Below are positions 30,481-56,720 of a stretch of DNA of 64,000 nucleotides, piece after piece. Every line of letters starts with the position of its first letter. The first letter of the stretch is position 1. The position numbers were made by a program, and so were the translations under genes. The notes beneath the pieces were generated by a model, which did no database searches, was not told the origin of the DNA, and saw nothing but the letters and a program-made list of their open reading frames with translations. This DNA comes from Cymbomonas tetramitiformis. Its lineage: Eukaryota; Chlorophyta; Pyramimonadophyceae; Pyramimonadales; Pyramimonadaceae. Location: NCBI GenBank assembly GCA_001247695.2, contig LGRX02035254.1, forward strand, positions 1 to 64,000, given 5' to 3'.

Positions 30481-30493
30481 AATGATTATATAT

Positions 30494-30872: not shown

Positions 30873-30997
30873 ACTGTTAATTTGTGTAGACTCATTTATA
30901 TTATATATATTCTCGTTCTGGCAATAAAAGGAACAATCGTTGATTGTTCCCATAACCGTTTGCGCTTTTCTCACTTTTCTTTTCTCTTATCTTATCA

Positions 30998-31960
30998 TCA
31001 ATTCTGGATTTCTACCAACTTTAGCATAAAGTTTATACGTTGATTAAGTAAGACTCGTCCACTTGAGAATTTCGTTACAAACTGTCCACCTTTTACAAAA
31101 TTATATGCAAGCAATGCATCATCGGGGTCATTTGCATCCTGTACTACAAGCCCACTTAATTCATATGTAAATTTTCTGTTATCTATTTGATCGACTGTTA
31201 TTGGTAAAGCCGTTGTATCAAACGTTAATTCCACAACGTTATCAGTACCACCTACATCTGCTGCGGTCAATGTTAAATCAGAGAAACAAATATAACTACC
31301 AGCTGGTATAACTACTGTTCGTGTACCTGGGTTTCCTGAAGTCAAAGCAGTAATAACTTCACAACCTTTGTAAGACAACTGTGTCGGCAATGTCAATCTT
31401 TCTAACGCTACGTTACGAGCTCCAATAATATCACCCGACATATTAATTCTGAAAAATGTACCATTATCAGGTTTCTTTTCAAAATTTATGAAATATATAG
31501 TTGAAGCATTTGCTTCGTCTACACCTCCGGTATTCAAACTAATAAATGCTGAATTAGCAGATTTGGACCCTTGTAATTCTAAATTTGTTTTTGAACCAAT
31601 TTGTGCAAAGTTAACAATTCCTCCGTTTATTGTTGTATCATTATCTACAGTGATACCTGATCCCGATTTTCCCCGTACATTATCAACTTGCAAATTAATA
31701 CATTCACAACCAGTAAAATCGCCCGCTGCAGCCTGTATACCTCCAGTAAACATCTCAATAGCGTTTTCAACAACCAATTTGTCGTTGATTGTTACAGTTT
31801 CGGCTATTAGTTCATTCTTTACAATGACATTTCCATTTGTTCTTTCAATATCGTCATTTCCAATATCTGTCCATTTACTTGACCCACCTGCCGGTGCATT
31901 ACCATTAATCGTATCACATGTTAAATTTTTACACACTAAACTTTGTCCAAAGCTACTCAT
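30998..31960 (-). CDS. Viral fibre-like protein with shared MSSFG N-terminus
   Basis: 320 residues from ATG at 31960. The N-terminus (MSSFGQSLVCKNLTCDTING) matches the start pattern of two neighbours (MS, S/A, FG, then a short beta segment and TCDT). The rest is Thr/Asn/Gly-rich with short beta-repeat texture (ITVDNDTTINGG, NLELQGSKS) and few charged clusters, as in beta-helical or trimeric fibre proteins. No signal peptide or membrane segment is seen. I infer a virion surface or attachment protein in which a conserved N-terminus docks to the capsid and the C-terminus varies. It is the last gene of the co-directed viral cluster, 19 bp after the preceding ORF. Upstream A/T sequence contains ATTATAGTATAG. 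Confidence 0.6.
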   Translation of the reverse strand: MSSFGQSLVCKNLTCDTINGNAPAGGSSKWTDIGNDDIERTNGNVIVKNELIAETVTINDKLVVENAIEMFTGGIQAAAGDFTGCECINLQVDNVRGKSGSGITVDNDTTINGGIVNFAQIGSKTNLELQGSKSANSAFISLNTGGVDEANASTIYFINFEKKPDNGTFFRINMSGDIIGARNVALERLTLPTQLSYKGCEVITALTSGNPGTRTVVIPAGSYICFSDLTLTAADVGGTDNVVELTFDTTALPITVDQIDNRKFTYELSGLVVQDANDPDDALLAYNFVKGGQFVTKFSSGRVLLNQRINFMLKLVEIQN

Positions 31961-31978
31961 CTGTCGTCTATACTATAA

Positions 31979-32200
31979 TTATGTAAAATAATTGAATCCT
32001 GGGCTTACCCAAATCAATACACCGCCACCAGCACCAGCCACTTTTGATTCCATAGCTGTTCCGATATATGAATCGCCCGCCGTAATCTGAGCACTATTAA
32101 TTTCACCGCTTACTATGTATTTCACACGTTGGCCCTTTACATACGTATTATCTGTAGCAGCGGCATTTCTACATGTGGTGAAACCGCGTCCGATCAACAC
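31979..32200 (-). CDS. Small ORF at the end of the large fibre gene
   Basis: The 73-codon frame has no ATG (it opens at GTG, 32200) and overlaps the stop of the upstream fibre gene. The peptide (GRGFTTCRNAAATD, then VKYIVSGEIN and GVLIWVSPGFNYF) looks like the end of a beta-rich virion protein. Because the frame is also open upstream inside the fibre gene, a simple explanation is a single frameshift near 32200-32230 that cut off the natural C-terminus of the 532-residue protein. An independent small gene is the alternative. Confidence 0.4.
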   Translation of the reverse strand: MLIGRGFTTCRNAAATDNTYVKGQRVKYIVSGEINSAQITAGDSYIGTAMESKVAGAGGGVLIWVSPGFNYFT

Positions 32201-33792: not shown

Positions 33793-33817
33793 TATATATA
33801 ATATAGCATTTAATAAT

Positions 33818-34198
33818 TTACGGTGGAGGTATTGACCCCATTTTCATAAAAATCTGAGCAGGTGTATCACCACCTGCAGTTTGATACCCATACAAGCCAT
33901 TGACCGGAACTACACTGTCGTTTGGTGGTGTATTAGTCGCTCCAGTCACAATCGGAAGACCTGCCATTCTAACTTTACAATTATCGGTCAGTGCTGCCAT
34001 GTTGAAGAAAGCTTCACCTGGAGTACCACTTTGACTTGCATCAAAATCAAGTTGAACTTTCGACCCAAGTAGATTCAAAAAGGTATTTGATGAAGGATTA
34101 TTATCAACCCCACCACGACCGATTACCATATTTTCACTTGCTTTAACTGAAATTGCTGTTACTTCTTTTACATTTAGTTCATTACCAAAAGAGCTCAT
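33818..34198 (-). CDS. Short viral fibre-like protein with shared N-terminus
   Basis: 126 residues, starting MSSFGNELNVKEVTAISVKA, the third example of the MSxFG docking start in this cluster. The remainder is Asn/Gly/Pro-rich (RGGVDNNPSSNTF, MAGLPIVTGATNTPPNDSVV) and could be a truncated or minimal fibre. The ATG lies only about a dozen bases from a MITE inserted on its 5' side, so its promoter is probably disrupted. Confidence 0.55.
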   Translation of the reverse strand: MSSFGNELNVKEVTAISVKASENMVIGRGGVDNNPSSNTFLNLLGSKVQLDFDASQSGTPGEAFFNMAALTDNCKVRMAGLPIVTGATNTPPNDSVVPVNGLYGYQTAGGDTPAQIFMKMGSIPPP

Positions 34199-34210
34199 TA
34201 TATATATATA

Positions 34211-34381
34211 CAGTAGTCTCTCGGATATAAGAATGTCGGAGAATCAAGGTCGGCCCATATATTCTTAATACGATTTCCATATCTAAGCACATCATCCCCA
34301 TATACAAGTACATAACACATTTCAAAAAGTTCCGCCCCGAGTTTCTTATAATAGGATATTCTTATATTTGAGAGACTACTG
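34211..34381. mobile_element. pogo/Tc1-type MITE inserted in the viral block
   Basis: 171 bp bounded by 24-nt terminal inverted repeats that differ at two positions: CAGTAGTCTCTC, two variable bases, then ATATAAGAAT. TA dinucleotides flank both sides (34209-34210 and 34382-34383), as in Tc1/mariner/pogo target duplications. The CAGTAGTCTCTC start is typical of pogo-type MITEs. It has no coding capacity. It sits between two viral genes. Confidence 0.85.
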
Positions 34382-34390
34382 TATATTACA

Positions 34391-34711
34391 TTATGAAAAA
34401 AACAAAGGTATAGGTTGTAACAATCTACTATTTAATGGATGCTCGATCGGAAAGTGAAACATGTCCAATTCTTTTGTTACTTGTTGGCCGTGTCCTAAAG
34501 TATAACTTTTATATCCCGCCAAGGGGTTGACGTTACTAATTCTAAATGGTGGATATGTAATATCATTGACTGTTTTACACGGGAGTTGTTTCATCAAAAC
34601 AGGTCTATAACCTGACATTTGAAACATCGTCGCGGTGTGGATTTGTTTGTCCACGTTCGGTCCTACATTTTTTATCATGTTGTACCCAACCAAGCCAGGT
34701 TGTTGTGCCAT
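34391..34711 (-). CDS. Small viral ORF of unknown function
   Basis: 106 residues from ATG at 34711, 24 bp after the stop of the capsid gene. The peptide (MAQQPGLVGYNMIKNVGPNV, then NPLAGYKSYTLGHGQQV and FPIEHPLNSRLL) has no membrane segment and no family I recognise. Tight spacing and shared strand suggest a virion or assembly protein. The upstream region carries AATAGTATAC, like other genes in this cluster. Confidence 0.45.
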   Translation of the reverse strand: MAQQPGLVGYNMIKNVGPNVDKQIHTATMFQMSGYRPVLMKQLPCKTVNDITYPPFRISNVNPLAGYKSYTLGHGQQVTKELDMFHFPIEHPLNSRLLQPIPLFFS

Positions 34712-34734
34712 ACTTGTATACTATTAACGGCTTT

Positions 34735-36060
34735 TTAAAATACTGTTTCGATCACACGATTTTGTCCTATACGAAGCACCGCAGTCGTTTCGCAGATAAT
34801 CATAGTTTCGTTTGTTGTAAGTACCGTTTGTAACGGGTCTGCTGGTGATGCACTAGAAGTTTGATAGTAGAAACTTGAATTTAATCCTCTACTATCTAAA
34901 CTAGTCAAACTTCTGACCCCCCATCTCAGACGGCAAATTCAAACGTACCATAGCAATGAATTGGTTATTGAGCCAATCTTCATATGAATTGATTTTACAT
35001 CCCGACAGCGTGCCATAATTATCGGCTTTGACAATAGTAAGCAAATTGAATGCTGCCAACGGGTCTACCCTATAGTTCGGCACAAACAAGTTGTTGATAT
35101 TGAACTGTAGAGCACCCAGACCACCTGCTAAGAACTGAAAGTATGATGGTAGATAGGTTGTTCCACATGTATTTTCCAATTTGATGAGCCCTTTATTTTT
35201 TTCTCTATAGTCAGCAGGCCTTTGCACAGCATATATGTTATTAATGCATTGTGAACTCAAAGAGAACCTTGTCGATTTGTCCATACCACCAGCACCTTCA
35301 AAGAAAGAAAAGTAATTGAAGTAAGGAATCTCCAAAAATTCATCACGCAATTTAGAATCAACGGCCGCGTCGTAGACCCCTGAACTAAAAGTAATTGTCT
35401 CTACTGTGAAGTAAAGTTTATCCGATTTTAAATTACCTTGCGATACTAAAGCTTCTTGAGCTTTCGTGTCAATTTCTACACCAGGTCCTTTTGATTTTTG
35501 ATAACACCCTAGGACTTCTGGACCTGCAAGGTACAGCCTTATCTGACACGGAGGCAAAAGTGAAGTATCACAGTATGAAGGTTCCGATTCTCCAAGAAAA
35601 GACAGCCATTGATACAAAATGTATGGACGCGGGGTACTGTAAAGGTTTTCAGTTGTATTGATTTCTTGATTTTTCAAAACTCTTTGATAAGTCATTTCTT
35701 TGCTGAGAGTGGTTTTGATCGTATCAAGTACACAACTCACCGTATTGTAACCTTGAAAACCAGTGGCGAGTTGCTGGCCTCCTGCGAAGATTTCCATTCT
35801 TTGAATAAGTTTTTCAATACCATTGGGAAGCGTCGTGATTAATTCATCTGCACCCCCAGCGTCGTTTGTAAAATCTACAGGTGTCGTACACGAACCTAAA
35901 CAATGCATAGATAGACTCTTCGCATGTTTACAATTGAATTTACGGGAAGATTGAGTGTAATCGTACTGTACCTCGATGCTTCAGTGAGATTTGTCGTTTC
36001 TAATCTAAAGTAATTAGTTGAATACGAGTTCATTTTTGAAAGCCCGAACGCCAAGGACAT
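34735..36060 (-). pseudogene. Double-jelly-roll major capsid protein, polinton-like, two frameshifts
   Basis: The longest open part (34901-35908, 335 residues) has PRPYILYQWLSFLG, NLFVPNYRVDPLAAFNLLT and INSYEDWLNNQFIAMVRLNL, which I recognise as major-capsid-like for polinton-like viruses and virophages. The gene is longer than this frame. The N-terminal 47 or so codons start at ATG 36060 in another frame that meets the main frame near 35910-35925. The C-terminal 55 or so codons continue in a third frame from about 34920 to the TAA at 34735. The second break falls in a run of six G on the coding strand (near 34918-34923). Total coding length would be about 440 residues, ordinary for this family. 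With two frameshifts it cannot make capsid as it stands, unless these are consensus errors. Confidence 0.75.
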
Positions 36061-36089
36061 CGGAAGGCTTATATTGTATATAGTATAGA

Positions 36090-36791
36090 TTATAAAATAT
36101 CAGAGAGGCCTATTGGTGCCAATTCTTCAACCTTGATGCTCAATGAATAATTGATAGAGCCGTCTGATGCTTGCGTAGGAGATGCTAATGTGATTAACCT
36201 GGCTTTGGAATCTGTAAGCGTTATTCTAAATGAAGTAAACTGTGAGCCGGACACTTCAATAACAAAGTTGTCGTTTGGATCTATATATCGTATCAAGTCT
36301 GTCGTTGTGTCACTTGGCAACAAGATTTTCGCCCAGATATCAGAACTAATCATTTCGTTAGTATTTGTAAAAGTAGAAAGATTGGTACTCTCAATATTGT
36401 GTGTAGGGAGCGATGTTATCCTAAGATATAAAGCATCATTGGTTTGAATGTTGCATGGATAAACAGATTGAAACACGGAGTTGGGTGTAGTGATGCCAAA
36501 CAGGTCCGAAAGTTGAGATATCTCTGCCAAACCAGCTGTGCTTCTATTAACACGACCTCCGAGTACTTGATCTGAGTCATTGTATTTTCCAGCTGTGGAA
36601 ACTGAAAGTAGGGCATTTTGTAAATTACTCTCCGGTAAAGCAAAAAAGTCCTCACTCACGCTGAATGATACAAACTTAATATTGGGTACTGCAGGATTCA
36701 ACGTTATACGAAATTTATTCTTATAATCAATTCCATCGCCGCTATTATTGTATAACACAGTTACATCACCGTCATACTGCCATACTGTCAT
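36090..36791 (-). CDS. Putative viral minor capsid (penton-like) protein
   Basis: 233 residues from ATG at 36791 (MTVWQYDGDVTVLYNNSGDG), 30 bp before the capsid gene start on the same strand. The sequence is beta-rich, Asn/Ser/Thr-heavy and low in Lys/Arg (SFSVSEDFFALPESNLQNAL, FVIEVSGSQFTSFRITL), as in single-jelly-roll pentons. The position next to the capsid gene is the usual place for the minor capsid gene in polinton-like viruses and virophages. I assign it by size, composition and neighbourhood, not by a specific motif. It is the last AT-rich viral gene; sequence beyond 36791 becomes GC-rich. Confidence 0.5.
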   Translation of the reverse strand: MTVWQYDGDVTVLYNNSGDGIDYKNKFRITLNPAVPNIKFVSFSVSEDFFALPESNLQNALLSVSTAGKYNDSDQVLGGRVNRSTAGLAEISQLSDLFGITTPNSVFQSVYPCNIQTNDALYLRITSLPTHNIESTNLSTFTNTNEMISSDIWAKILLPSDTTTDLIRYIDPNDNFVIEVSGSQFTSFRITLTDSKARLITLASPTQASDGSINYSLSIKVEELAPIGLSDIL

Positions 36792-37413
36792 ACCACGTCA
36801 TACTATGTCCCCTAGTACAAGCCCTGCAAGCAATTCCGAAGCCCTGTGAGCCGTGCAAGGCAACCACCATCCACTGCAACCAATATCTCGAAAAGCTCCG
36901 CGTGTTCCATGTCGCATCCTCCTCCTCCCGAAACAATCGGTCTTGCCTGCGCTGTACACAACTGTCGAAGAACTTCCGCACCGATTTCCCCAAACCTCCA
37001 AAAGACTCCAAAGCAAAAGGCACAAGTGTGTGAGGCCAGATTGGTCCGTACAATGCCCTCTTGGCTCGCTCATGTACCGCCGCAGCCCGCAGCGGCTCCC
37101 GAGCAGCCGCCCGGTCTACATACGAGGCACAACAAAGGAATGCAAGGCTCGCGTTAATCACGATATATCTGCCTCGTCCATCATGGTTGAGCACTGTGAT
37201 GTCGGGCTTCCAATCAGGCGAATACTCATGATGATTGCGATCCTCCACGAGGACAAAGGCTGGATCAAAGACTTGCTTCAGCATAGATGCCAGCACACTG
37301 CGAACGGCACGATGCGCCGTGATAGCCCAGCCACGCCGGTTACAGACAAGGTAGACACGGTAGCGTATTTGTATACTTACAGGTGACATACACACGAAAT
37401 TATGTTGCTGCAT
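36772..37413 (-). pseudogene. Retroelement-type fragment, possible PD-(D/E)XK-like C-terminal domain
   Basis: A 213-codon GC-rich frame with SPDWKPDITVLNHDGRGRYI, then AAVHERAKRALYGPIWPHTL and VPFALESFGGLGKSVRKF. This layout (KPD...D..., then K..Y, then PF..E.FGG) is what I know from the region downstream of RT in many LINE-like and related polyproteins of protists. RT itself is absent. Its base composition contrasts with the viral block it touches, so it marks the block's right-hand edge. Assignment is by pattern memory only. Confidence 0.4.
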
Positions 37414-38100
37414 AATAGGGGTTCCTCAAATCGGGACTAGAAACCTCAAGTTCCGATTTATGGGGGGAAATGTCTAGATTTTCTGTTCAGTGGAATCCAG
37501 GAATTTAATGTCCCCGCATACGACTCAAGGTGTAGATAAATCTCACAAACTTAACGGGACCCGCCGCCATATCAGTTCTGCTGCGTACTGCGTACACTAC
37601 TGTGCGAAATATGCAAATCGAAAACGACTTCAAACCAACCAGCCTGAAAATGACGATCGAAGATTCTTGAAGCCATGTCCCCTGATATTTGAGGTGAAGA
37701 CATGTTTCACATAATTTACGTGACATGATATCTTACGCACGGCGTAAAATATATTGTGCGAAATAAAAATCGAAGACTTATAGACGATGCACCAATGATA
37801 CAAATGAATAAATATATGTAACATTAAACGAGCGCGAGCGCGAACGGAGCGCGAGGGGCGAAGCATCCGCAACGGGCACACTTTTTTTTGTCGTAGGTAC
37901 CTAGGTTGGGGCTAAGGTAGGTGCTTCTCATTGGCACATATGATAATTTCCCCCCAATATTTACGTACCTCGTATGTAACTATGCGGAAACGAAACACTG
38001 TAACGCACGTACATTGTCAGTTCTAAGTGCACGACCTATCAGTTTTGCACGCTTGTGAAGTGAGCGCAGCGAACGAACAACGCGAAATCGCTCGACGACA
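37414..38100. other. No recognisable gene; short duplicated words
   Basis: Only short frames occur. TGTGCGAAATATGCAAATCG at about 37601 and TTGTGCGAAATAAAAATCG at about 37755 are a weak direct repeat about 155 bp apart, each followed by a GAAGA word. A GAGCGCGAGCGCGAACGGAG run lies near 37830. Confidence 0.5.
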
Positions 38101-38111
38101 TTACTCGCGTT

Positions 38112-38465
38112 GTGTCCAAATCCGGCGGGCACGATAAGCTTCCAAGTCATAAAGCAACTGCTGCGAAATGGGAGTATGCCACGCCTGTCGAGTATGACTC
38201 TGAGGATGACGTCAGCGAGTTCGATGACGTGGTAGCTGACGATCCGGAGGAACAGGCTGAAGCTCGGAGGCTGAAGAGACAGGGATCACAGTTGATCCTG
38301 GATGGGAAGGGTGAACTTGTTATCTGGGTGCCAAAGGGCACATCTCCGTCATCACCCGTTCAGCAGGTGGATCAGCATATCCCCGAGCAGAAGTCTGGTG
38401 TTGTCTCTGGTTGTGCTTGTGCTCGAGGTGTGGAGACCAAATCTAACGTTGAAGGGTCAACCTGA
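38112..38465 (+). CDS. Unrecognised acidic ORF
   Basis: 117 codons, opening at GTG with no early ATG. The peptide is acidic in the middle (EYDSEDDVSEFDDVVADDPE) and then has GSQLILDGKGELVIWVPKG. A second frame just downstream ends with DSDGEAELLAPRRKRVRGS, a nuclear-localisation-like tail, which suggests a frameshift or short intron near 38460. It is followed by the dispersed repeat shared with 2383-2500, which ended a retroelement fragment there, so a retroelement origin is possible. Confidence 0.3.
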   Translation: MSKSGGHDKLPSHKATAAKWEYATPVEYDSEDDVSEFDDVVADDPEEQAEARRLKRQGSQLILDGKGELVIWVPKGTSPSSPVQQVDQHIPEQKSGVVSGCACARGVETKSNVEGST

Positions 38466-38693
38466 CAAGTCTGGAAACATCGACAGTGATGGCGAAGCTG
38501 AGTTATTGGCTCCTCGGAGGAAAAGAGTCAGAGGCAGCTAGATAAGCTAGAGGGAAATTAATGTGCTGATTCTCTGATTAGGATTTGTATAGGTGGCAGA
38601 GTATGATTGATGCTAGCCGACACATGACAGATCCATCCGATATTTGGGAGGCGCTCCCTGAAAGTGTATCTAAGACACGAGTTTTAGCCCAGT

Positions 38694-38812
38694 GGAGGCT
38701 GTTCTAGCTTGAAGTAATTATTTGGAAGAGCTTGGTCTCACCCTGTTAAAATACTGGTAATATTTCCTGACATAAAGATAATGCAATTGTCCGATTGTAG
38801 CCTTGTTCAATG
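38694..38812. repeat. Second copy of the dispersed repeat at 2383-2500
   Basis: Starts GGCTGTTCTAGCTTGAAGTA and matches the first copy through CATAAAGATAATGCAATTG and TTGTAGCCTTG. Its right edge abuts the inverted-repeat element at 38814. Confidence 0.75.
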
Positions 38813-38813
38813 A

Positions 38814-38969
38814 ACCTTTTATTCATTTTACAGATAAATTGACGTGGCACCTACGTGGAGCTTACGTGGTCCGACGTGGATGTGACGTGTCACAGCGTGA
38901 ACCGCACAAAACTTTTGTTTTGTTAACTATTTTATAAACTTCACTTTGGAATTAAAATGAATAAAAGGT
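38814..38969. mobile_element. MITE-like element, 17-nt inverted ends
   Basis: ACCTTTTATTCATTTTA at 38814-38830 and its exact complement at 38953-38969 bound 156 bp that contain several ACGTGG/CCACGT words. A related end (GGACCTTTTATTGATTTTAA) appears at about 42148, in the orientation opposite to the right end here. Confidence 0.65.
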
Positions 38970-38985
38970 CCACAGTAGTCGCGTG

Positions 38986-41900
38986 TACAGATATTTCACT
39001 ATCCGTACACAGCTTGCTGCTGGCTGGCACGTATCGACTCAGTAACCCTAAATCCAAACGGCTCTAATTGTGTATCCGAATGTTTAGCAATTATCTTATT
39101 CTGACTGTTCACAACTTATTCCTCTCCGCCTTCATATGTTCAAGGTTCATTATGTTCAACGTCGGAGGTTATATTCCAAATTGCATATACGGGCTGCCGC
39201 GCCGCTTTGCGCCTAGGGGTTGGAGCCAAAGGACATTGCAAAGTCGGGGGGGGGGCTAGGCGCAAAGAATCCTTGCGGAACGAGCAAAGCTCGCTCCAAG
39301 AAACTTGGGAATCGCGAGCGCGCCAATTTGTGGAAGCCTCACCGACGGAGGCGCGGTGCGGTCCATGCAGGGCCCGCTGCAACGTTCCCGCGAATGTGGA
39401 AAGTGGACCCGGCAGGGCCCTGCAATGGGGCAAAAGGGCCCATATCGTGGGATGATGTTCTTAAACGGGTCGGGCACATTTAAGGACACTTTGACAATTT
39501 CAAGGACACTTTGACACTTTTAGGGACATGTTCTTAAATGTGTCCCCACTGTCCTTACAAGTGACAAATCGTCCCTAAAAGTGCCCCCACTGTCCCTAAA
39601 AGTGCCCCGATCGTTCCAAAACACGACTCGCCTGTCCCACATGAGCATATCATATACGTGGTCTTTGCTTCTATCAGCAGACGAACGTGTATAATTACAA
39701 TTGGAATTCATTCGAGATTGAACGTAAACGGCGGGAAAATGCGAATAAGACGGCGGGATCTTCGACAAATGTGTGATTAAGATGCCCCGTGACCCACTAT
39801 GACAGGTGGTCAGCAAACGCGCCGTTAATTTCATCGACTTGACAATAGGAACTCTGACCGTACCGGAGTCCCTGCCGCAGCCACTTGGCGGCACACTACA
39901 GTGTCATTCAAACTGCTTTCGCCCCGCCAAGGTTTTGCTTTCCGTCATTTAAAAATGTTTTTTTTTTCGTTAGACACGTCCCTGCAGCTCATGGTCCACA
40001 TACGAGGCGATAGAGACCGGACTTCGAGAACGGAAACGCACATTTTAGGCGTGCTCCGTCTAGCTTAAGGTTCACGCCCCGAAAAATGCTGTTGCAATGG
40101 AACGGGGAGCCCTTGTCTGAACGGGGTTAATGATGCTTAATTTTTGTGTAGAAAAGTGTTTGTGTTTTCGAATTTTGAGTTGTGCCCTCTATTTTTTGCT
40201 GCCTTCTATTTTCGCAACGTGGGTTTCGCAGTCCACGTGGGTGTAATTTTGAGGTTAAAAACCCTGTGCGTAGAACACTAGAACAGATACTGCGCTGGAA
40301 TGTGTTGACGGGTTTCGGTGGTGCTGCGAGATGGAACAGGACCGTATGGAAAGCTTACCGGCCACGGACCGTCTTTATGGGCGTAACTACGACTTCTAGC
40401 AATGTTTTCTAGGTGCACTTCCCTGGCTCGGTAAAATTTCTTTCACTATGCCCCTGAGCGCGGAGATCCTCAACAGATGCGCTGTTTAAGCGCCCCGCAC
40501 GTGTAGTGAACTGGCATTTGTTCATAGTTTGAATAGTGCCGTGTTTTCTGCGACACGGATGTTTTCGAGTGCTTTCCAGTACATCAAACGATCAAGTGTT
40601 GCGGAATTTAAGGTGTTTCGAAAGGCAAAAGCTCACCCCTACTGTGCCCATGGGTGGCTGTCGCGCTTGCACACGTTTTTGGCACATACGAAACTCATAA
40701 AAGCCGCATCGTAGCATAGGTATGTAGTGTGTTTATTTTTTAAGGGATCAATTGTTTGGCGCAGTTGGTGTTTCAGCGGTTCACAGTGCAGGCCGGTTCC
40801 AGACCACTGCATGTTCGACTACTGATCCGGGCTTTCATATTTCCTTTGTGAGCGGCCCGCAGGTAATATTCTGTTCTTCTCGTCACCATTAACAGCACGG
40901 AGTTGTATTTTCTTCCCTTTCAGATTTTCCTGAGTTTTGGTATTCGTCAGCGTGTGCGCGATGGATTTATATCCTGACCGCCGTTTGCCGCAGCTCAAGG
41001 TATATGTGGTCCAGCAACCTGGGTGGCAAACTTGCCACCCAGCTTGGGATAAAACCCGAACCGCGCCGTGCTCGCTTGACTGCCTAAATATACAGTCAAG
41101 CGAGCCAACCGTATCGGAGAAATAATATATATTCTTGGCGCTGACTGGCTGGGCTGTGCATCGCGGGTTGTGGGAGCAAAGTTTTGCAGGACGTACCGAG
41201 ACTCCGAGCATCTAGACTACGCAAGCAAAGGAGTTCGCTAACTAACCGGCTTTTCGACGGTAAGCTCCTCGGTGCCGAATCCCTGTTGTATGTAGTGCCG
41301 TGCTTCTGATGTGTCTGAGCCGAGGTGTATGGGTTCAGCATCCAGGTGAGAGCGCAGAGCGAAGGGAGCTGGCGAAGAAGCTTGAGATGTAGTAGACTTA
41401 GGCATAGGTTTAGGAAGCAGAAAAACTTTTGAAGAGTAAAAAGCATCGGTATCACTGATTTGTTTACCAGTGGCTACGGTATGCACACTGCAACCCTGCA
41501 CTGTGCGTTTCCATGATTGCATTCCTGTTGCGTGTTTCCAGAATAGGAGCATGCACGCACACAACTGGAACCGGTGCGTTTAGAATCGGATACACTAGCA
41601 CTGGCACGGGCGGGGAGGTTGCTGGGCAGCACGCTTGACGCACTGCCCACACCACGGGTTGTATGGCGAGTGTAAACGCACGCCTCGTTTTCGTAGCATC
41701 GTCATCGTCATCATATGAGTTACGTGCCAGTGGGTGTATCATCGGCAGCATTAGCGCTAGTACCACCGAGCATACACATTCGAGCAATAACTAAAAGTTC
41801 TCAGAGGTTTAAAGCATATTTCTGTTATTGTGTAGAAGTGCTGCAGTGATGAGTGAATAGCTCGGAAAATGAACTTAACCCTGACTATTTGCACTTAAAA

Positions 41901-42140
41901 AGCGCCTGAATCCCAAAAGCTGGAGCATCAGATACCACCCAAATCGATGTCGACCAATCAACAAACTTTTGAGAATCGCTCGCGACTGCTGCCAAGTTAG
42001 GTGGAATACCACCAACCTCCATTTGCGCATTCTGTGCAGCCTTGCCTAGAATAATGGTTCCTATAATTGTCTTGAGAACTTGGTGCGTTCTCATTATTTT
42101 GAATTGACGGACTCGAAGCCTCCTCACCTCCCCGCCCCTT
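38986..42140. other. Long stretch without a recognisable gene
   Basis: Contains a GC-rich segment (39190-39440) and iterated GGGACA/TGTCCC with CACTTTT words (39470-39610). It also has a perfect 13-bp inverted repeat with a 10-nt loop (GCTCGCTTGACTG at 41070-41082, complement 41093-41105), next to a GGGTGGCAAACTTGCCACCC hairpin at about 41022. Frames of 60-130 codons on both strands show no family features. Confidence 0.55.
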
Positions 42141-42666
42141 ACTGTGGACCTTTTATTGATTTTAATTCCAAAACGTGCTTTATTAAACGATTAGCAAAAT
42201 AAACATGATGGGGGGCGGGGGCTGATGGGGCTCGACACGCGATTTTGCCCCGCGCGGTCCCACGAGAAGGTGCCTCGCGCGACGAACCAACGTTTCCGGT
42301 CGCGACATTGCAAAGTCGACGTTGACGCCGAGTGACAACTATAGCAGCTAGGGTATACGTTAGTATACCGAAAATAGCAGTCGGTGTACAGTGACTTACA
42401 TGGTCACAGTCCAGCGGCCAAGCAGGGAGGTGAGAGCGATATACTGATTTTCGCTTGAATGTATGTCTCCGTCGAACATGTGATCGCACAGGTCAGACAC
42501 GTCAACACAGTACCGATATGCGAATGCAGTATATTTTTCACCACCAGATCTGTTAGAGAGAATATTAAGTATTAATTCGTTTCAGCGCGGTCAGCTTATT
42601 GGTTAAGAAAAAGGTTCTTGTTCTCATTAATTAATTCTGATCGACGTGGCAGGATACCCAATATAA

Positions 42667-43646
42667 CGTGTCTTCTTTATTGATTTTGAAATTAAATAAT
42701 CATTTTGCCCCAAAACGACTTATGTAAAGAAATAACAAACAGCAATTAATTGGTTTGCTCGATTCCCGGCGGTGAAAAAAAAACAAAGTCGATTAATTAA
42801 TTAATTGGTAGATAGCCCCGCCACTAAAAGCACGAACAACAAGACCGGAATTAATTCGAATGTCGCCGAATCCTGCCAACAACAGCCAACAATGTCAAAC
42901 TGGTAAAATACTGCTCGATCCGTCAAAATCGCTCTCACTGCACACCACCACACGCCGGCGGACTCGTCGGGACTGTGTCGGTATCATAATAAGGGACTCG
43001 GCGGTGTGTACAGTATTTGGTGTAAATGCAGTCCTGTCAGTTGGAAATGTGGGAAGACGACCCTGGGTGACATGGCCAAGATGCGCCGTTCGTTAGACAA
43101 GCGTCAACATCCGTCACTAATGAGATTCGGTGTGAAGCGCGGTGTCGCCCCCACAGCAGTGAACAACGACCCCGCTGTTGTAACTCGTCCCGAGCCCAAG
43201 CTCTCCGCTGAGGACATACTTTTACTTTTCTTAGAGAAAGTTTTGCGCCATCTCAACAAGAAGTCAATTCACTCCCAGTGCTAGTGTACTGCGTGAATAT
43301 TAGGGTGCCCCCATCCTAATAATGCCATGATTATGCAATCAAACTCGTGTGACGGAGCGTAGTATTATTGTAATGTTTATAAAAGTGGTGGCAAAATCAT
43401 TTAATGTGTGTCCTCTGCGAAGGAATAGCCCATCGGCCTGAAAAGTGAAAACAATTAAATATTTCAACAAAATGCTCGGTATCTATAAAAAAAAAGTCCA
43501 TTGAGTAAATAATTGGTAGGCAGGCTCCGCACTAAAAGAACAAAGAAAAACTTGTAATTATTTAATTGTTTTCAGCCAATCAACAAACTTTTGACCCTGT
43601 TTTATTGCACCCGAATTCAAGAATAAAAATCAATAAAGAAGACACG
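42667..43646. mobile_element. AT-rich segment bounded by a perfect 21-nt inverted repeat
   Basis: CGTGTCTTCTTTATTGATTT plus one T at 42667-42687 is matched exactly in complement at 43626-43646. Both ends then show AATTAATTGG-type words and a CCGC(C)ACTAAAAG word (42829 and 43534), so homology continues inward, partly in direct orientation. The 980-bp interior has one 70-codon frame (43072-43284, MAKMRRSLDKRQHPSLMRFG) without known relatives. It may be a non-autonomous DNA transposon. No clear target duplication is visible. Confidence 0.45.
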
Positions 43647-44084
43647 GTAACCGAGTCACGGTTCGCGACACAGGACACGGAAATTCTGCGACATTTTCGG
43701 AATATTAATGGAGACTAATCCGAAACCGTTTCACGACAACTCCGCGCTTTTCATCTCGCATAGTTTCACCGCAGTATAGGGACATGTGGCGAAGACATGT
43801 CGCGAAAATCAAAAGTGAGCGTAAGACGGCTGTGAATGTTGGGGATATTAGAAAATTCCAGCCTGCGGCGCATAAGAATATCGAAATATTGTTATTTTAG
43901 AATAGAATGGGTTCAGTTTAAAATAGAAGTAGTACTGCGGTTATTTTAGAATAGATACAATAAATTTTGCGAGCTCCCTAAAATGCTTATTCTCAGCTTT
44001 AAATTTCATGACCCCCCTCCTTCTTCCCTCCCCGAAGAAAAAATCGCGTTCTTTCCCATTTTTTCATTTTTAAATCGCGATAAA

Positions 44085-45199: not shown

Positions 45200-48100
45200 T
45201 CATCCATTGGTTATTCTTCCCGGAATTTCATCACCTGCAGCCACAAATGTATGCACCTTGAAGAAGAAATCCGGGAAATTCTGTAAAACGCAGAATTGAT
45301 TTGGGCCCGTGCAACTCTAATTCGTCAGACACAAAAAGGAAATGAATCTCACCTTTCACAGATTTCTTTTCAGAGGCTTGACCTGACGCAGTCTTTGAGC
45401 TTCGTTGCAGACTGTGAATAGCGAGCACCTCGTTGAAGATGCGAGTTCCTACTCCTGACATGTCGTGGTACGGAGGCGACCAGCTGAAAGGATCTTCAAT
45501 GGCCACGCCAATCTCATTGATTCCATAGAAGCCCAGCGCAACGACCATAGACGGAATGGGGGTAATCCAAGAGAAGGTAATGGTGAAGACAAAAGGCGCA
45601 CTGTACACGTAAACAAAGAGCAAGAACTGCACCATCTGCAGATACTGATATGGTGCTGGCGTTGTTGCAATAAACTCGCACCCCTTCAAACCCTGCATAA
45701 CAGCCTCCATTTCGTGGTACACCTCGAAAGCCGCCTGCTCATAGATATGACCGAGTCGTCTGTGTCGCTCTATGATGCGCTCCATGTTCGCAAAGGCAAT
45801 ATTTGGCCGATTCAGTGGCTCAATGCCACGGTACAGCTCGCGCTCCGGTTCGGTGAGAAGTGTTGACAGGCTGGGAGCCCCGTGTTTGTCATTCCGTAAG
45901 AGTTCATCATCGTCAACCTTGCCAGTCGGATATCCGTGTCTCTGATCACGCACAAGCTGCCGGATAAAGGCATAAGCAATGTTGCACTGGCGGCGGAGCT
46001 CCTGCAGGTCCTCTCGCACCATGACGGAGCGCACCATGAAGCCGTCTTTTGAGTAACCGGGTTCCCCTGCACAGCACAGTTCACAGGAAAAATCTCATGT
46101 CGTAATCCTTCATCTTTGATTCTCCTTATGTTGCTAGGAGCACGCTCAGGAAACCAGTTCACACCCGTGCCAACAAGCAAAGCAAAGTACAGTGGAGAGG
46201 GGCCCACCTTCATAAGACTGGCGCATGAACGCTAGTAGCGCAATATTGACGTTCCTCATGGATGTGTACATCTGGCCGAGGTTGGTCATGCCGTCATAGT
46301 ATTTCTCATAGGACAAGTTGGTGCGGAACACAAGCAGGAAGCCGATAATGGTGACTGCAATAGAGTGCATGTTTGTCCCGAAAGTGATGAGGCACTGTGA
46401 TTCTTTCTTTACGTTGTTCCCACACAAGAACACCTTCGTCACCTGTGCAACGACACCCATCCCTGCAGCGCATATGATCTGTGGCAGAACGCGCTCAAAT
46501 ACTGTGCCACGATATAAGAGCACCTCGGTGAACCAAGCCCAGGGCCCATCTGGCCACTCCTTCTGGGTGCTCAGCATGGCCTCCCGCAAGGCCATGTCGC
46601 GGCGCGACAGCAGCAGCGCCTTCTCCGCATCCGTGGTGGGTGCAGAAGGGGGCATGGTGACGCGAGGAGTGGTCACTGCCAACTCATCCAACGTGCGAAC
46701 CACTGCAGGGATCTCCTCCTCCTCAGGACTCAAGCCCTGTCGCTGAATTTGAACATTTTCGCAATAGATGCGCCACCCTATGGAGGTGAGATCCAGGTTG
46801 GGTTTTTCCCAGTCGAAGGGGTGTTCAATGGCTTTCCCGATTGCATCGATGCCGTAGTAGGCCATGGCAAGGATTCCACTTGGGAACCAGGTCATCCACT
46901 TGAAGTCGACCGAGAACACAAAGGGAGCGGAGAAGACGAAGAAGAAGAGAACAAAGTTCATCATCTGGAGGTACTGGAAGGGCACAGGGGTGGTCACAAC
47001 GCGCTCACAGGACTTCAGCTCGTCGAGCACAGACTTTGATTCTAGATATATGTCGAAGGCGCCGCGGTCACAGATGTTCCCCACACGACGGTTGTGCTCC
47101 ACGATGCGCTGGATCAGCGCCACGACAATGTTCGGTCGATTGTTGAAAGTCACTTTTTTGTACTCCTCCACCTCGGTCTTGGTTAGCAGGGCACCGATGC
47201 TCGGCTTGCCATACAGATCTTCCTGCAAGAGATGGTGGTCACTCGCAAACCGTCCACCGGGATATCCTAGACGCTGCTCCCGCAGTGACTGTCGGATAAA
47301 ACCCATGAGCAACGCTGTGAGCCGCAGCAACTCAACACGGTCTTGCGCAAGGCGCACCATCTTCATCGTGTGCGCTTTCCCGCCCTCATAGTTTGGCTCG
47401 CCCTTCCGTGGGCTCCGCAAGAACACCGACACCCCCATATTCAGGTTGCGCAGCCGGTTGTGAATGTTGCTCAGCGCCGTCTTTGCCTCGTAGTAGCGGT
47501 CGTAAGCGAGATTCGTGCGGAACACAAGCAGAAAAGCGAGCACAGAGCCCACGGTGGTGTGCGCATATCGCTCGAAGGTAATCGCACAGTCCCCTGGGGC
47601 AGTCACATCCGAGCCGCAGACGTTGAGCTTGGCGCACTGTGCGACCAGGCCCATGGCTGCGCCGGTAACCCACTGTGGGATCACCTTCAAGTGGATGGTA
47701 TCCTTCACCTTGAACGCCTCAGTGATGAATCCATACCCCGCTTCGCTGAGTGTCTGTGGGCCTTCCTGCTTCTTCTGCGCCGCGGACTTCGAGTTGTCCC
47801 TCACCCTTGCATAATCCGGCTTGCTTTGTCCCTTGTTCTGTACGATCCGTCTGTCCGCTTCCCCCTGGAATTCGGGCCGCCCACTCATATCGTGCATCAC
47901 CTCGTGTAATTGGAGGGTTTCCGAGTAAAGCCGCCAACCAGCAGCAGTGAGATCGTGACGTGGCTCTGTGTAGGTAAAGGGATCCTCGATGGAACGGCCT
48001 ATCTCGTAGACACCGTAGAATCCGAGAGCAAGAATCGCACTCGGGAAGAACGCCAGCCGCCCAAAGAGTCCGACAAACACCAGTGGCGCAGTGTAGATGT

Positions 48101-51100
48101 ACAGGAAGAGGATGAACGTCACCATGTGCAAGTACTGATATGGCATTCTGGTCCCCACAATACGCTCCATATCCTGAAAGGACTGTAGACAAACCTCCAG
48201 CTCATGGTAAATGTCAAATGCGCCACGCTCAGAGATGTGATTCATTCTTCGGTGATGCTCAACGATGGCCTGCATCCTTGTCACAACAATGTTCGGGCGG
48301 TTCTTATAGTTGAAGTTTGCATATTCATCCTTTTCTTGGTCCGACAGCAAGGACTTGAGAGAGGGGCTTCCAGCTTCATCCTCATGAACCAATTCAGCGT
48401 CTGATACTTCCTCAGTTTCCGGGTAACCGTGCCGCTGCTCCCGGATGGCCTGCCGGATGAAGGCGAAGAGCAGGCTGGAAAGCCGGCGAAGCTCAATATG
48501 ATCCTTTGACAGCTGTGTGTTCACCTCAAGCTGTACTTGATCCCCAACATAGGACGCCTCCCCGTCCAAATCGGTACGCAGGAAGGAGCAGAACGCCACG
48601 TTGACATTGCGGAGGGCGTTGAAGAGAGCTCCCAGGCTCTTTTTGCCCTCGTAGAACCGGTAATCGGCAATGTACGTGCGGAACACCAGTAAAAAACCAG
48701 TGATGTTGCCGACGAGTCTATGAGCAGTGGCCGTCGCAAAAAGCTGCGTCGCATCACAATTCTCCGGCAAGGCGTCATCAGCGGACATAGTCAGGAGATT
48801 TCCCGACTTGGCGCATAAGTGCCACACGGTTACATTACCAAGAAGTGCCACTGCGATGGCGATCACAACTTGAGGAACCACTTTCGTGTGCACAGTGTTC
48901 TTCCACTTAAAAACTTCCGTCAGGAAGGCATAGTTCCCGATACCCATCTCACGGCTTGCCGCTTCCTTCCCGTGTTCCTTGCTTGTCCCCTGAGCAGTTG
49001 TTACGGCCATGCTGGTTTCTCCCCTCCCAACTTGCATTGCAGAATGGAGTTTCTTGTACATCTCACAATTGTATAACAGTTGTTGGTCCTTCGCGACGAT
49101 CGCAGACACCTTCTCATGTATCTGCACAACCCAAAGGCCAGCAGTCACTTGGACTAGCACCCAGGATAAACCGCTGTACCTTTGAGAAGCAACTCTATTT
49201 GGTTATACCTCGAGTAATAAACCTAGTACAAGCCACGGAACCCACTCACATGTAAAAACAGTGAAAATCTGCGTGGTCCCTGAATGAATCAATATGGGAG
49301 AAATAGAAACAGAGCCACGCACATACCTGCAAGTTTTCCTTGAACATACGCCATCCAACTGCAGTGAGATTGTGGAAGGGCTCGGTATAGTTGAAAGGGT
49401 CCTGCATGACCCGTCCGACTTCTGCGATTCCGTAGAATCCAAGGACGACGATCGCTGAGGGTATAAATAAGAAGCCGCGGAAGGTGAAGGAGAAGATAAA
49501 GGGGCACGTGTACACGAAAATGAAGAGCACAAAGTTCAGCATATGGAGGTAAGAGTACGGGATGGGTGTGCTAACGATGCGTTCAGTCGCCTTCCACGCC
49601 TCTAGCACGTTCTCGCACTGGAGGTAGACCTCAAACGCCGCACGCTCAGATATATGTCCACGGCGCCGGTGATGCTCCACAATGTACTGAATCTTGCCCA
49701 TTACCACATTCGGCCTGTTGTTTGGGGAAATATTCATCCAAAAGTCCACCTCCCCCTCTAGGAACATCGCTGCAACAGAAGGCTTGCCTTGCTCGTCCTC
49801 GCCCAGGATCTGCGCATCGGTGGGCATTCTACCGTCGGCCAGACCGACACGGTGCTCACGCAGCGTGTGACGTACGAAGGCATAGAGAATGTTTGTAAGC
49901 CGCAGCACCTCGAGACGGTCCTCGTGTAGTTTCTGCCTGAAAGAATCGGAGGCATGAAAAGAGTCATATCCCGGCTCGTCCTCCAGCTCGGTACGCATGA
50001 AAGTCGCAAACGCGACGTTCAGGTTGCGCAGACCGCTATACATCTTTCCCAGCGACATTTTACCCTCGTAGTATCTATCATAAGAGATGTTGGAGCGGAA
50101 CACCAGTAAGAAACCCATGACAGTCGCCATGATGCTGTGTGCTTCGTCGGGGACCGCAACAGGGCAGTTGTCAACCGAGTCTGGGTCGTCACAAACAATT
50201 ATCATTGAGCCGAAAGCAAATAGAGCCACGAGCTGACTCAGAATCAGCTGAGTCACAATTGAAGGTATCACGGTTCCCTTAACTTGGAAGACCACCAACA
50301 GAAACTGGAAAGCACTTTCCGCCTTTTCCTGCATACCATATCCCGAATATGACGTCATTCACCTTTCAACGCACCAGTGCACCCTTTCATCCTCCAGTAC
50401 TAAGGACGACAGGTCTCTCAAGATTCACACGGAATTTAGTAGTTCCCTACGGTGTGCGTTTTCCTTTGGCTACGGTTGAACGTGCGGGCTCGGGGTTCAC
50501 TCCGAGCTATGCAACTATCGTTTATGTAGCACATAAGAAAGGAAGTGGGAAAAGAATCAATATGTCTCTTTTGCACAAAGACACGAAGTGCTGCACCTCT
50601 TTTGGTTGGGGCGTACAGAGAACAGCAGAGGACTGCCATCAAATGCACCCTGCACGAAGAACGGTGTAGGTGGAATACCTTAGGCTTGATGTATTTTGGA
50701 TCCACCTCATCCTCTGGACCAGGTTCGCGGGACTTGCTGGCCCCCAGCTCACTCTCTTCCTCCAGGCGGTGGGCTTGGATTCTCTTCACGTCCTCGCCAA
50801 CAAGAAGGTGCGCAAGACGCATCTCATCATCAGAGCCTTTTGACAAGTCGTCGTGGTCCATGGCACCAATTGCCTCGTGCATGATAGTATTTTCTGTTTC
50901 CCAAGAAACCTCACCGCGTGATGATGAGGCGCCAAGCAAAGAGAACACATTTTGCAGACATGAAGTGAAGCAGCATTTTGGGGGGCTGAAGCGTTTCCTC
51001 AAATTCTACCTCGAATAAAAGTTCTAAAAAAGCCTTTCAAAAAAGCTCAGGGCAAGTTTCGCGTTTGGACACTGAGCTTGCTGCCAGAGTTGTGCATATT

Positions 51101-54100
51101 TGTGCTCCGGGCGGCGAAAGGTACCTCGGTAAATGCGCCATCCGACTTGTGTAAGGTCGTGGTTCGGCTCCTTCCATCCGAAAGGATCCTCCAGGGCACG
51201 GCCCAGCTCGTTGACGCCATAGAATGCAAGCGCAATGACGAAACTCTGCAGAAATAAATGCCGACCGGCAAATAGCTTTCTTTAGTTTAAGGCAAACGTT
51301 TTCGTGGAAAACACAAGCAAGATAAGGCGAGATAGTTCACAAACAGGCTACCGCTTCCCATACGCAACGAGCGTGGTTGCGAGGTTTTGCAGACAGCCCA
51401 TCGAAGCCGCCTGGTGCCCTCGAAGCAAAGACGTACTACTCGCTAGAATATACAAGTCGAGCAGTGAAGGATCTGGACCTAGTACCTGCCCGCACAACGA
51501 AAGATCTGTCGAGCGAATTGAGAGACCCAATTCGCAGAGACGACCGACTTCCACCTAGCGAGGCCAGACGGAGCTCTACCGGCAAAGGTTCTTTCCCTAC
51601 AAGAGGGCGTTGTCAACTTTCCTCGAAGAATCTCGGGAGTCATAGATAGCCGCAGAGCAAGCTCAAAATCGAGGCAAATATAGGGGAACAGAAAAGCGAG
51701 TGGTAAGTGCCGAACCGGGAAAAAGGTTGCATATTTGAAAGATGCGCTGAAGACGAAGGGCGTTGTGTACACAAAAAACACCAGTAGAAAGTCGAGCATG
51801 TGCAAATAAGAGTGTGGGATAGGCGTAGTGATAATGCGCTCTATCCCCTTCAGCTCGCCCATCACTTTCTCCGTTTCTGTGTATATATCCATCAGCCCTT
51901 TCTCTGACAGGTGACCAAGCCGACGGTGATGTTCACAAATTGCCTGAATGTGCGCCATGACTGCACACACATCCCCTCTCCGCTTCTCAGCGAGAAGATG
52001 AGACGACAGACACGACTGGGTAACAGGTATCTCTGTCGAAACTAAAAGAACCTTGAAATGCAACAGAACGAGAAGAGTGATGCGAGACGCAAAACTCGCC
52101 TATATTTGGTCTGTTCCAGGGGTCTGTGCCCTTGTACTCAGCGTACTCAGCCTCATCCTTCCACAGAGAGGCGATGCAAGGCTTGCCAGCTCTATCGTTT
52201 GTAATTATTTCCTCGTCCTCAACTGGCCCCGTATCAGAATATCCATGCCGTTGTTCCCGGACCACTTGCCTGCGAGTAAAATTCAGCTAACGTAAGTGAA
52301 GACTCCTCCGGAGAGAATGCACGCTTCCTTGCCGCAGGAACACCCTTCTTAAAAAGCGAATTTTGTGCGAGGGAGAACTGCTGTGCCTCGTTAGCTGATG
52401 AAGGCGTTCTCTGCGAGGAAGAAGTGCTGTACTGTACCACCTGATGTAAAGCGTTCCATGCGAGAAAGAAGTGCTGCCTTGTTACCTGATGTAAACGGTT
52501 CTAGGTTGGGGAATAGTGCTGTGCCTGTTAGCTGATGAAGGCGTTCTATGAGAGGGGTTGGTGTTGTGCCTTATTACCTGTTAACGGCGTTGTATGCGAG
52601 GAAGAAGTGCTGTGCCTTATGACCTGATGAAGGCGTTATATGCGAGGAAGAAGTGCTGTGCCTTATTACCTGATGAAGGCGTTCTATGCGAGGAAGAAGT
52701 GCTGTGCCTTATTACCTGTTGCAAAGCGTTTTATGCGAGAAAGAAGTGCTGTCTTATTACCTGATGTAAACGGTTCTAGGCTGGGGAATAGTGCTGTGCC
52801 TGTTAGCTGATGAAGCCGTTTTATGAGAGGGGTCAGCGCTGTGCCTTATTACCTGATGAAGGCGTTCTATGGGGGGAAGAACTGCTGTGCCTTATTACCT
52901 GATGAAGGCGTTCTATGCGAGGAAGAAGTGCTGTGCGGTTTTAGCTGATGTAAACGGTTCTATGCTCGGGAGAAGAGTTGTCCCTTTTAGTTGATGAAAG
53001 AGTTCTCGGCTCGGGAGAAGTGCTTGCTTGATCACCTACCTGGTGGAAGGCGGTTTATGCGAGGGGGAAGTGCTATGCCTGCTTACCTTATGAAGGCGTA
53101 AAGCAAATTCGTCAGCCGCAACAGCTCGACACGATCCTGGGCCACGCCAAGTACCGTGCTCCTCAGCCTCCACTGGAGGTGACACAAAAACATTTCGGGT
53201 GCGTCCCGAGGGACGCCCAAGTGCCAAGTGCGCAGCGTGGTTCACCTCCCTTATCTCACAGAGAGCGCGCCTTAGAAACGCCAGGTCTGACCTGCCGAGC
53301 TTGGTTCCCCACACACTACTGCAAGAGGCAACTGTTTTCAGAAGTTTACACAGGCCATACACAGCGTGCAAAATAACTCACCCGCGCCAGTTCTTGCATG
53401 GCCAACGGCGTATATTCCTTCCCATGAAAGTTCATTTCGTCCTGTCTCGGTGCCCTGAAAAACACACAACAGGCGTCATGACTGAACTCGTATGCAGACC
53501 GACTTACGAGGCCGAACCCCTTACGTTGAGCCGACAGCAAGTGCCGCCCCTAGCTCAGTGCTCGTTTACACTGGGGGCAGGAAATACCTGAGAAACACGG
53601 TAAACGCAATATTTATATCGCGAAGACCATTATATATGGCTCCAAAATTCTTCTTTCCCCCGAAATACCTATCTTGCGCGAGCTCGACCCTGCGAAACGG
53701 CGCCGAACGATTAGGGTCGTTGACTTGGGCTACAGGTGTACAGAAGTGAAGGTAAGGGGTCGGGCTCAGGCCTTACCTTGTCACCAGCAAGAAAGAAAGA
53801 ATAAGAGCAACAACCACGTGCCCGGTGGGATCAAAGGTGACAGCACAGTCTTCTGGCGTCTTGCAATCTTCATCGTCATCACTGTCATCACAAGAACTCT
53901 GTGGAGAGGAAACGGAAGCATCAGTTCGGTACTTCTCTCTGCACAAGGTTGATCGGCGCCAAGAAGTCAACACAAGCAAACAAGATACACAGGAACGAGC
54001 ATAGTGAATACTGCACGCAGCTTAAGGCCTTCAATTTCTTCAGAATTTTTGTTTCACCGCTCCAACAAAACTCAAAACCGCCGGCTTTGCGAGGTGCTCA

Positions 54101-54650
54101 ACTGCTTGCGAGTTCCCCAGGAGGGTATTGGCCAAAATTCTGAGTTGCCGGGGCACTCCAACAACTCAGCCAGAGTAAGGGAAAAGCACTGTGGGGAACA
54201 TCACTCACCGCCACATTTGGACCACAAAAGTAAAGCTTGGCAACTTGACCGACGAAACCCATGATGACAGAAGCGATGAGCTGCATACAGAGGAGAGTTC
54301 TCAGCAAACGAACAGCCTGGCAGAATAAGTATCGCCACACCCAAGAAACTAGATTCTCAGTAACTGCGATTTTGACACAAAAGCAGTAGCTTAGTGCCAG
54401 CAAGTATCACGCCTCTGTTGCTGACTTGAAAAATTTCCGGCCCTGTTGCTGACTTTAAATATTTCCGGCACACAGTGAAAACCGTGGAGTGAGTTGCCTT
54501 TGATAAATATTATTTAATACTCGCAGGAGGTGAGCGGGAGGAGACGAAACCGGAGGGCACCTGAGGCAGGATACTTCGGAGCACAGTGCCTCTCCATCTG
54601 AAGCACTCTTTCACAAAGGAAAAATCGTCCGCTTCCAAAATCGCCGTGCG
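45200..54650 (-). CDS. Five-domain tandem bestrophin (poly-bestrophin), spliced
   Basis: Multi-pass anion (chloride/bicarbonate-type) channel protein of the bestrophin family. Phase-consistent exons, 5' to 3' on the minus strand: 54650-54561, 54280-54209, 53898-53777, 53689-53588, 53454-53382, 53172-53087, 52269-52100, 51960-51716, 51245-51125, a linker exon ending 50679, 50328-49327, 49121-46208, 46066-45353 and 45234-45200. They encode five bestrophin units: A (nine exons, 360 residues), B (one exon), C and D (whole within the 2.9-kb exon) and E (split once). Each unit has the FLLV(F/T)R pore-helix motif, a DRYxxG/DRYYE-like stretch, LLRLT..L..FIR, NRP(N)I/V, HRR.GH, P.(P)Y.YLHM and a (E/Q)(D/H)PF end. 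Exon phases join B to C (KENLQ to IHEKV) and the linker to B (KYIKPK to EKAESA), so this is one polypeptide of about 2,000 residues. The 5' end and the unit A-linker join are unresolved. Confidence 0.85.
52385..53080 (-). repeat. Intronic minisatellite built from an exon/donor boundary
   Basis: About 15 units of 44-52 bp (plus strand GTGCCTTATTACCTGATGAA, GGCGTTCTATGCGAGGAAGA, AGTGCT) fill the intron between bestrophin exons 53087-53172 and 52100-52269. On the coding strand each unit reads like the exon end CGCCTTCAT(A/C)AG followed by GTAA, so every unit is a copy of the adjoining 5' splice site. About ten units keep a GT. A five-unit higher-order pattern repeats (the GGTTCTAGG(T/C)TGGGG subtype occurs twice). 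Confidence 0.85.
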
Positions 54651-56720
54651 CTGCAGATCAAGGAAGTAGAATAATCCTTATCCGACTGGGCCGATAGGTT
54701 GACAGATATCAAACATAACAACGGAATAAGCCTGATATGCAAATAACTTACCGGTGGCAGGAAGATATCTCTCTTCTTGGCAGAATACCTCGGTATCGGC
54801 CGACCTTCAGACTGAGACAAAAACACAGAGCGCGTAAGCGTTAAGGAGTGCATAGTGGACCAAGCATAGCTGCATCAACTCGGAAAAAGAAGACGCTTCC
54901 TTAAGAAGTCGCGGAGATGGCGATAGAAATCACAGAAATCAAACCAGACGGAGTAGAACACTCACCCCAGGTGCACCGGCATCCGGCATCCTCCCTCTAC
55001 CTGCGACCAAAAGAACTCGAAGAGAGCGTCATAGGAAAGCGCGCCAGTCAAGTGTAGGAAATGTTCTTGAACAGCATTTCAGGGTCGAGGTATGCAAGAG
55101 TTTGTTAAATGTAAGACACGTCTTTGACGAATACGGGTAGTACTGGCAATGCGATGTCGCCCATGTATCAAAGAAGAGGTCGCACTGACAGGAGTACGGG
55201 TGTGTTCCCCCGTCCGACACACGCGTAATGTTGGGCCACTTCTTTAAGTACCGCAAAAGTATCAAAAAATACTTGGTGAAAGTCATATTCAGATATATGT
55301 CCTCCGGTACAGGCCGAACTCAGCACAACTTCAGATGCATGTTTGGCAGCACGAGCAGCTGCCCTGTGATAAAACTAGTGGACAAGGGAGCCTAGGAGTA
55401 CGACCAAGCCAGGGCAAAAGCAATCCACGGTCCACTTACAGAGTATTTACCAAGTAAGTTACCATACTGGCATTCTAACGTTTCCAAACGAAAGAAGAAG
55501 AACCCGCTGGTGGTGAGTGACTAGTGCACATTCGGTCCCAGGATACCCACCTAACTACTGCGGCAAGACCGGAAAAGCGAAGAAGTGAAGTCATGAGCTG
55601 CCCCTAAAGTGTTTTTTGTTGTCTTTCTCACCTTAAATATTCACGCGCCTTGTCGGCAGTATCAGAGTTGGTCAGTGAATCAATCCCATGTCATTCATGC
55701 TCAGCTCGCAGCAGCACACAACGGCAGACAGGACCGCCAGAATTCAAGTAGAAAATAGGGACAATCATTCGCGAATCTATATTTACATATCTTACACGAG
55801 TGTGAGAGTTCTTGAGAATTCTCAAAGCATCGTGACGTTCCCTTCCAGGGCAAAGCACAGCAGATGAAACCCACTTCTTGCAAACATGAGTCAAATATTA
55901 ATATATCTCACTCACCCTCAAGCCTTGACCTTCCGTCTGTTGATCTGTTGTGTGTCTGGTTGCCTTGTATCAGTATGTGTATCATGTATATCTTGTATCA
56001 TGTATGCCTATGCCTCTTTACTTGTGTACTTGGCCAGTCGATCTAAAGATCTCCACTAGGCCTGTGAGCTGTGTGTGACTGACGTGAGTGACATACTGAC
56101 ATGACATTACACATTTGCGAAATTAATTGTTATCATAATCATCGTCATTTTGCGATCGGACGGCACTGGCGCGACACAATAATTACAATAATAATAATAA
56201 TAATAATAATTACGTAGCGAGTTATCTGACTTAGCTCCGCTCCGCAGAGCACCCCTAGCTACCCCTAACTACCCCTAGCTACTGCCAGCTACTGTACTGC
56301 AACCGCTGAGGTGATAGGCTCACAATGGGAGTGTCCACAGACACTGGTACCCCTCGTGCCCGAAGGCAGGGTATTGCATGTCCCGTGCCTGCCTACAGGC
56401 ACAGTCAGGGATGACCCCGATCTAGCTCGGGAGCCTACGGCGGCTAAGCCACACACTCACAAGCGCTCGGGGATAGGGCTCTCAGAACAGTGATTGTCTA
56501 GGTGAAAATAAACATACGGAACTAAACAAATAAAGCAACGGCAGAAGGAAATAATATGCACGTAAGAGAGGGGGGGGTTGGTACTCAACACAACAATCAG
56601 AGTCGGTAACAAAGACGGTGAAATAACCGCGGTGGGTATATTCGACAACCGCGGTGGAATATATGCGTGTTATTTAGTCTCCACAAACTCTGTGAAGCTG
56701 GGACGAGATGCTCGGGTGGT
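54651..56720. other. 5' flank of the bestrophin gene; no further domain recognised
   Basis: First exon(s) with the start codon and any targeting peptide must lie here but could not be identified. Short minus-strand frames (54611-54853, 55029-55286) are candidates without support. An (AAT)n microsatellite is at 56187-56210, and an ACCCCTAGCT-type short repeat is at 56250-56285. Confidence 0.5.

Follow-up and report, generated by a model that had tools for sequence, protein, structure and literature searches.

A five-unit bestrophin gene model in Cymbomonas tetramitiformis and a candidate for a one-chain pentameric channel

Results

Five bestrophin units in one gene model

In a 64,000-base stretch of the genome of the green alga Cymbomonas tetramitiformis (bases 1-64000 of the 117,411-base contig C25070, G+C 50.6%; hereafter the window), we describe a minus-strand gene whose predicted product carries five tandem bestrophin units, A to E. 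An earlier note on this DNA had proposed a single polypeptide with five bestrophin domains. The best-supported gene model is a single chain with exactly five units; it rests on reading phase, on the coding signal of exon 11, on homology that continues from A into the linker exon and from B into C, and on the gap of only 77 bases that two separate genes would leave. We think it rather probable that this one gene yields a single five-protomer chain which closes into one anion-selective, asymmetric bestrophin ring.

The spliced model has 15 exons, running from 54853 to 45200 and joined in phase into a 6027-base frame of 2008 codons plus the stop, with no internal stop. The predicted product has about 2008 amino acids and a mass of 228 kDa. 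Thirteen of the 14 introns have GT-AG ends, the exception being intron 8 with GC-AG; the presence of introns marks the DNA as eukaryotic. All parts of the earlier note's exon layout were confirmed. Unit A (51125..54650) is made of nine phase-matched exons: exons 2-4 at 54650-54561, 54280-54209 and 53898-53777, exons 5-7 at 53689-53588, 53454-53382 and 53136-53087, and exons 8-10 at 52269-52100, 51960-51716 and 51245-51125. Exon 11 (50679..50893) encodes the last residues of A (ENTIMHE) and the A-B linker, joins A to B in phase and has no stop within the frame used. Exon 12 (49327..50328) encodes unit B, and the B-C junction KENLQ/IHEKV (a slash marks the intron) is in phase 0. Exon 13 (46208..49121), a single open frame of 2914 bases, holds the end of B, C, D and the first third of E together with the three linkers between them. 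The rest of E is in exon 14 (45353..46066), and exon 15 (45200..45234) adds the last residues and the stop.

The least certain parts of the model are the two ends of the gene. The span 45200..54650 given in the earlier note contains the parts described there, but the true start lies upstream of 54650. We place it in exon 1 (54752..54853), which has an ATG, an open frame, a GTAAGT donor and a coding score of -0.098 (bits per codon, trained on exons 12 and 13); an extra short exon at 54966-54989 followed by 54752-54811 is about equally good. Exon 15 follows a phase-matched GT-AG intron 14, and its coding score is uninformative: its 35 bases score 0.137 in their own frame, below the 0.7 and 0.444 of the other two. 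Exon 7 most likely starts at 53136 rather than 53172 (which would give 2020 codons), because the 12 extra residues are absent from the other four units and the 36 bases score as non-coding in frame.

Homology and number of units

Every unit exceeds the curated cut-off (27 bits) of the Pfam family PF25539 (Bestrophin_2). Spliced unit A with its linker scores 111 bits, B 127.2 bits, the C-D-start of E region 265.7 bits over three stretches, and the rest of E 82.9 bits. These matches are beyond chance and, judged by sequence, the gene belongs to the PF25539 branch of the bestrophin superfamily. Pairwise identity among the five units is 39.5 to 46.5%, and the bestrophin protomer fold was found for unit D. 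A profile built from B, C, D and E only recovers eight of the nine exons of A, in profile order, missing exon 6.

The count of exactly five also held. The B-E profile has no other match across the window up to an expectation value (E) of 10, and a five-unit profile reaches at most 7.2 bits (E 4) over the 53,411 bases of the contig that lie outside the window.

We extended the search to the whole genome (851.7 Mb, 25,745 contigs), where PF25539 has at least 44 matches on at least 25 contigs, six of them within the five-unit gene. The others (at least 38, on at least 24 contigs) keep profile order where a contig has several, and none of those 24 contigs covers the profile twice; on C6997, two pieces share 32 positions of the profile. 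A search with unit B gave 10 matches up to E 0.01. Eight are in the five-unit gene and only two weak ones (27.8 and 24 bits) lie outside it, so this search found no second copy of the gene. The bestrophin matches of locus L016 (on C18059) and of contig C22728 have identical scores and spacing, and are probably two assembly copies of one locus.

Evidence for one chain

For C, D and the first third of E, the placement on one chain is direct, because they share the 2914-base exon without a stop. Units A and B are tied into the same chain by the homology of unit ends, which runs across introns 10 and 12: the C terminus, inside its exon, reads WRLYSETLQLHE, while that of B (WRMFKENLQ/IHE) spans intron 12 and that of A (WRIYR/ENTIMHE) spans intron 10.

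The in-frame codon score of exon 11, 0.432, is the highest of the 15 exons and is independent, since training used exons 12 and 13. None of 2049 overlapping intron-window values in three frames reaches it (maximum 0.033), a comparison that is partly circular as the same introns served as background. The read-through behind the exon 11 donor scores -0.221. We also ranked splice sites over 45.0-55.5 kb with a matrix trained on the same 14 introns, which is a consistency check only. For intron 12 the acceptor ranks best and the donor second-best; for intron 11 they rank 7th and 17th. All five units would probably be read from one transcript.

A proposed one-chain, one-ring assembly

Each bestrophin protomer crosses the membrane with four helices, and five protomers form a C5 ring. 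Both ends of the protomer are cytosolic, and with four helices this allows one unit to follow another on a chain in the same orientation. The four linkers are 82, 71, 66 and 77 residues long and 61-73% polar. We propose that five protomers, tethered by these polar linkers in one membrane protein, would line up next to one another and form a closed ring around one pore, one chain doing the work of five copies elsewhere. One chain per ring would fix the stoichiometry. It would also place the odd residues of A and E once in each pore and make the ring inherently asymmetric.

The pore residues vary with position. The three neck residues are L/F/T in A, T/F/F in B, N/F/F in C, S/F/F in D and T/F/F in E. 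Phe thus occupies the middle position in all five units, on which basis the pore is most likely anion-selective. The third position is Thr in A, where all 59 bacterial rows have Phe. At the aperture, A to E have Lys, Arg, Arg, Arg and Gln, E alone having no basic residue there. All five units retain the remaining pore landmarks, and A also has the residues that are otherwise invariant across the units. The earlier suggestion that each position would be free to diverge gains support from the Thr of A and the Gln of E. We lean slightly towards a natural covalently linked pentameric channel with one chain per pore and five specialised positions, in which A would contribute a polar gap in the third ring of the neck and E would take one charge from an aperture ring that is basic in the other units.

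Several observations weigh against this proposal. Splice-site ranks are low for intron 10 (25th and 28th) and for the donors of introns 8 and 9 (46th and 62nd), the weak sites being these two donors and the intron 10 acceptor. Unit B could have its own start at 50358, because the 30 bases from this ATG to exon 12 have a coding-like score of 0.269, although over a very short stretch. The first neck position of B to E is Thr, Asn, Ser and Thr, whereas it is hydrophobic in the solved bestrophins compared. A two-unit C-D structure prediction from one sequence gave a predicted local distance difference test (pLDDT) of 37.7 and a predicted template modelling score (pTM) of 0.25. Finally, exactly five units could be chance.

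Alternative readings

The alternative that survives best keeps the five-unit chain but lets pores mix units of different chains, or makes some units a scaffold. Linkers this long would allow mixing, and unit A lacks its otherwise invariant neck Phe. Nonetheless we regard it as unlikely: the units number exactly five, each keeps the other pore landmarks and, as a general argument, neighbours on the same chain meet first.

Quite unlikely, in our view, are two genes, one encoding A with exon 11 and the other a four-unit B-C-D-E chain, which could form a pentamer as 1 + 4. The frame of A does stay open beyond exon 11 up to a stop at 50436, and the ATG at 50358, from which B could start, lies right behind a stop. 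The two frames would, however, be only 77 bases apart, the read-through past exon 11 has the negative score given above, and the ranked donor and acceptor of intron 11 are usable. In addition, the green-algal poly(A) signal TGTAA is absent from 53350 to 48834, and two copies lie 99 and 151 bases past the last stop.

Very improbable is a polyprotein cut in its linkers into pieces that form ordinary bestrophin pentamers. Polyproteins are reported in algae and dinoflagellates, but the four linkers show no recurrent motif and are not detectably related (depending on which of the six linker pairs is taken, between 36 and 144 out of 300 shuffled versions score as high as the real one).

Origin of the five units

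We built a tree of 26 rows: the five units, six genes from the same genome and 15 bacterial sequences. Four of the six own-genome rows are two reading frames joined without a splice model, and their branch lengths are rough. The five units form one group (100/100), which joins the single-unit genes L015 and L018 of the same genome (100/99). Branching within the group is nearly unresolved (C groups with E at 91/85) and the unit branches are 0.45 to 0.69 long, which fits an old fusion that would have been made by duplications close in time. We give very little weight to a decaying tandem array with some units, A above all, no longer working: the third neck Phe of A is replaced by Thr and a minisatellite fills intron 7, but no stop or frame break occurs across 15 exons, exons 2-10 score higher in their own frame than in the other two, and A keeps its other invariant positions.

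The intron 7 minisatellite (52366-53099) has 15.9 copies of a 46-base unit that resembles the end of exon 7 and its splice donor, ACGCCTTCATCAG/GTAA. Of the 12 copies listed, counting the real junction, 8 retain a GGTA or similar donor, and the array seems to have expanded out of the boundary between exon 7 and the intron.

Other features of the window

On the plus strand, the open frame at 10636-17382 (2249 amino acids) resembles a Ty3/gypsy element, with matches to reverse transcriptase, RNase H, integrase and a chromodomain; it also matches the Dam-type DNA adenine methyltransferase family PF05869 (31.3 bits, cut-off 28.1). A 47-base unit forms long arrays at 25934-28141, several frames of which are open, and a 220-base unit is repeated 5.2 times at 3457-4597 with 95% matches. 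The region 26001-44000 has mostly lower G+C (0.36-0.49 in 2-kb steps). Four minus-strand open frames scanned between 31001 and 36797 have no Pfam match.

Comparison with known systems

The known bestrophins compared here have one unit per chain. KpBest of Klebsiella pneumoniae (PDB 4wd7, 6iv3) is a homopentamer with Ile at the middle neck position and at the aperture; sequence identity is about 20%. Plant VCCN1 (7ek1-7ek3) has Ser301 at the aperture. The animal Ca2+-activated BEST1 and BEST2 belong to PF01062, which gives 14.8 bits for the rest of E (cut-off 24.2) and, within E 0.01, matches neither A nor B nor exon 13. The I-F-F neck of animal BEST1-4 is found in none of the five units.

Among algal proteins, bestrhodopsins (7pl9) form rings of five chains that each have a single bestrophin unit, and carry one or two rhodopsins, as described in PMC12291454. 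They differ from the five-unit protein in carrying a rhodopsin domain on the chain with that single unit; a rhodopsin search of spliced A, B and exon 13 and of 54.7-64 kb in all three minus-strand frames had no match, though in the latter region short exon pieces could escape the profile. Chlamydomonas BST4, likewise a bestrophin of a green alga, is a pentamer with one unit per chain and a disordered tail, according to PMC11638005. No report of several bestrophin domains in one chain turned up among the papers listed by our literature searches, whose scope left out most subscription papers, and unreported database entries may exist.

Parallels in working are the four-repeat voltage-gated Na+/Ca2+ channels and the two-pore channels, which likewise fuse pore subunits, each free to specialise, but have an unrelated fold and four-fold rather than five-fold symmetry. 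Such channels hold several pore subunits in one chain, and ring channels with four repeats per chain are textbook cases; we know of no ring channel with five. If the five-unit reading is confirmed, each ring position could evolve separately, with a built-in asymmetry beyond the reach of a homopentamer. The gene would then show how a homomeric ring becomes asymmetric through gene fusion, and would provide a ready-made concatemer for probing single positions of the bestrophin neck or aperture.
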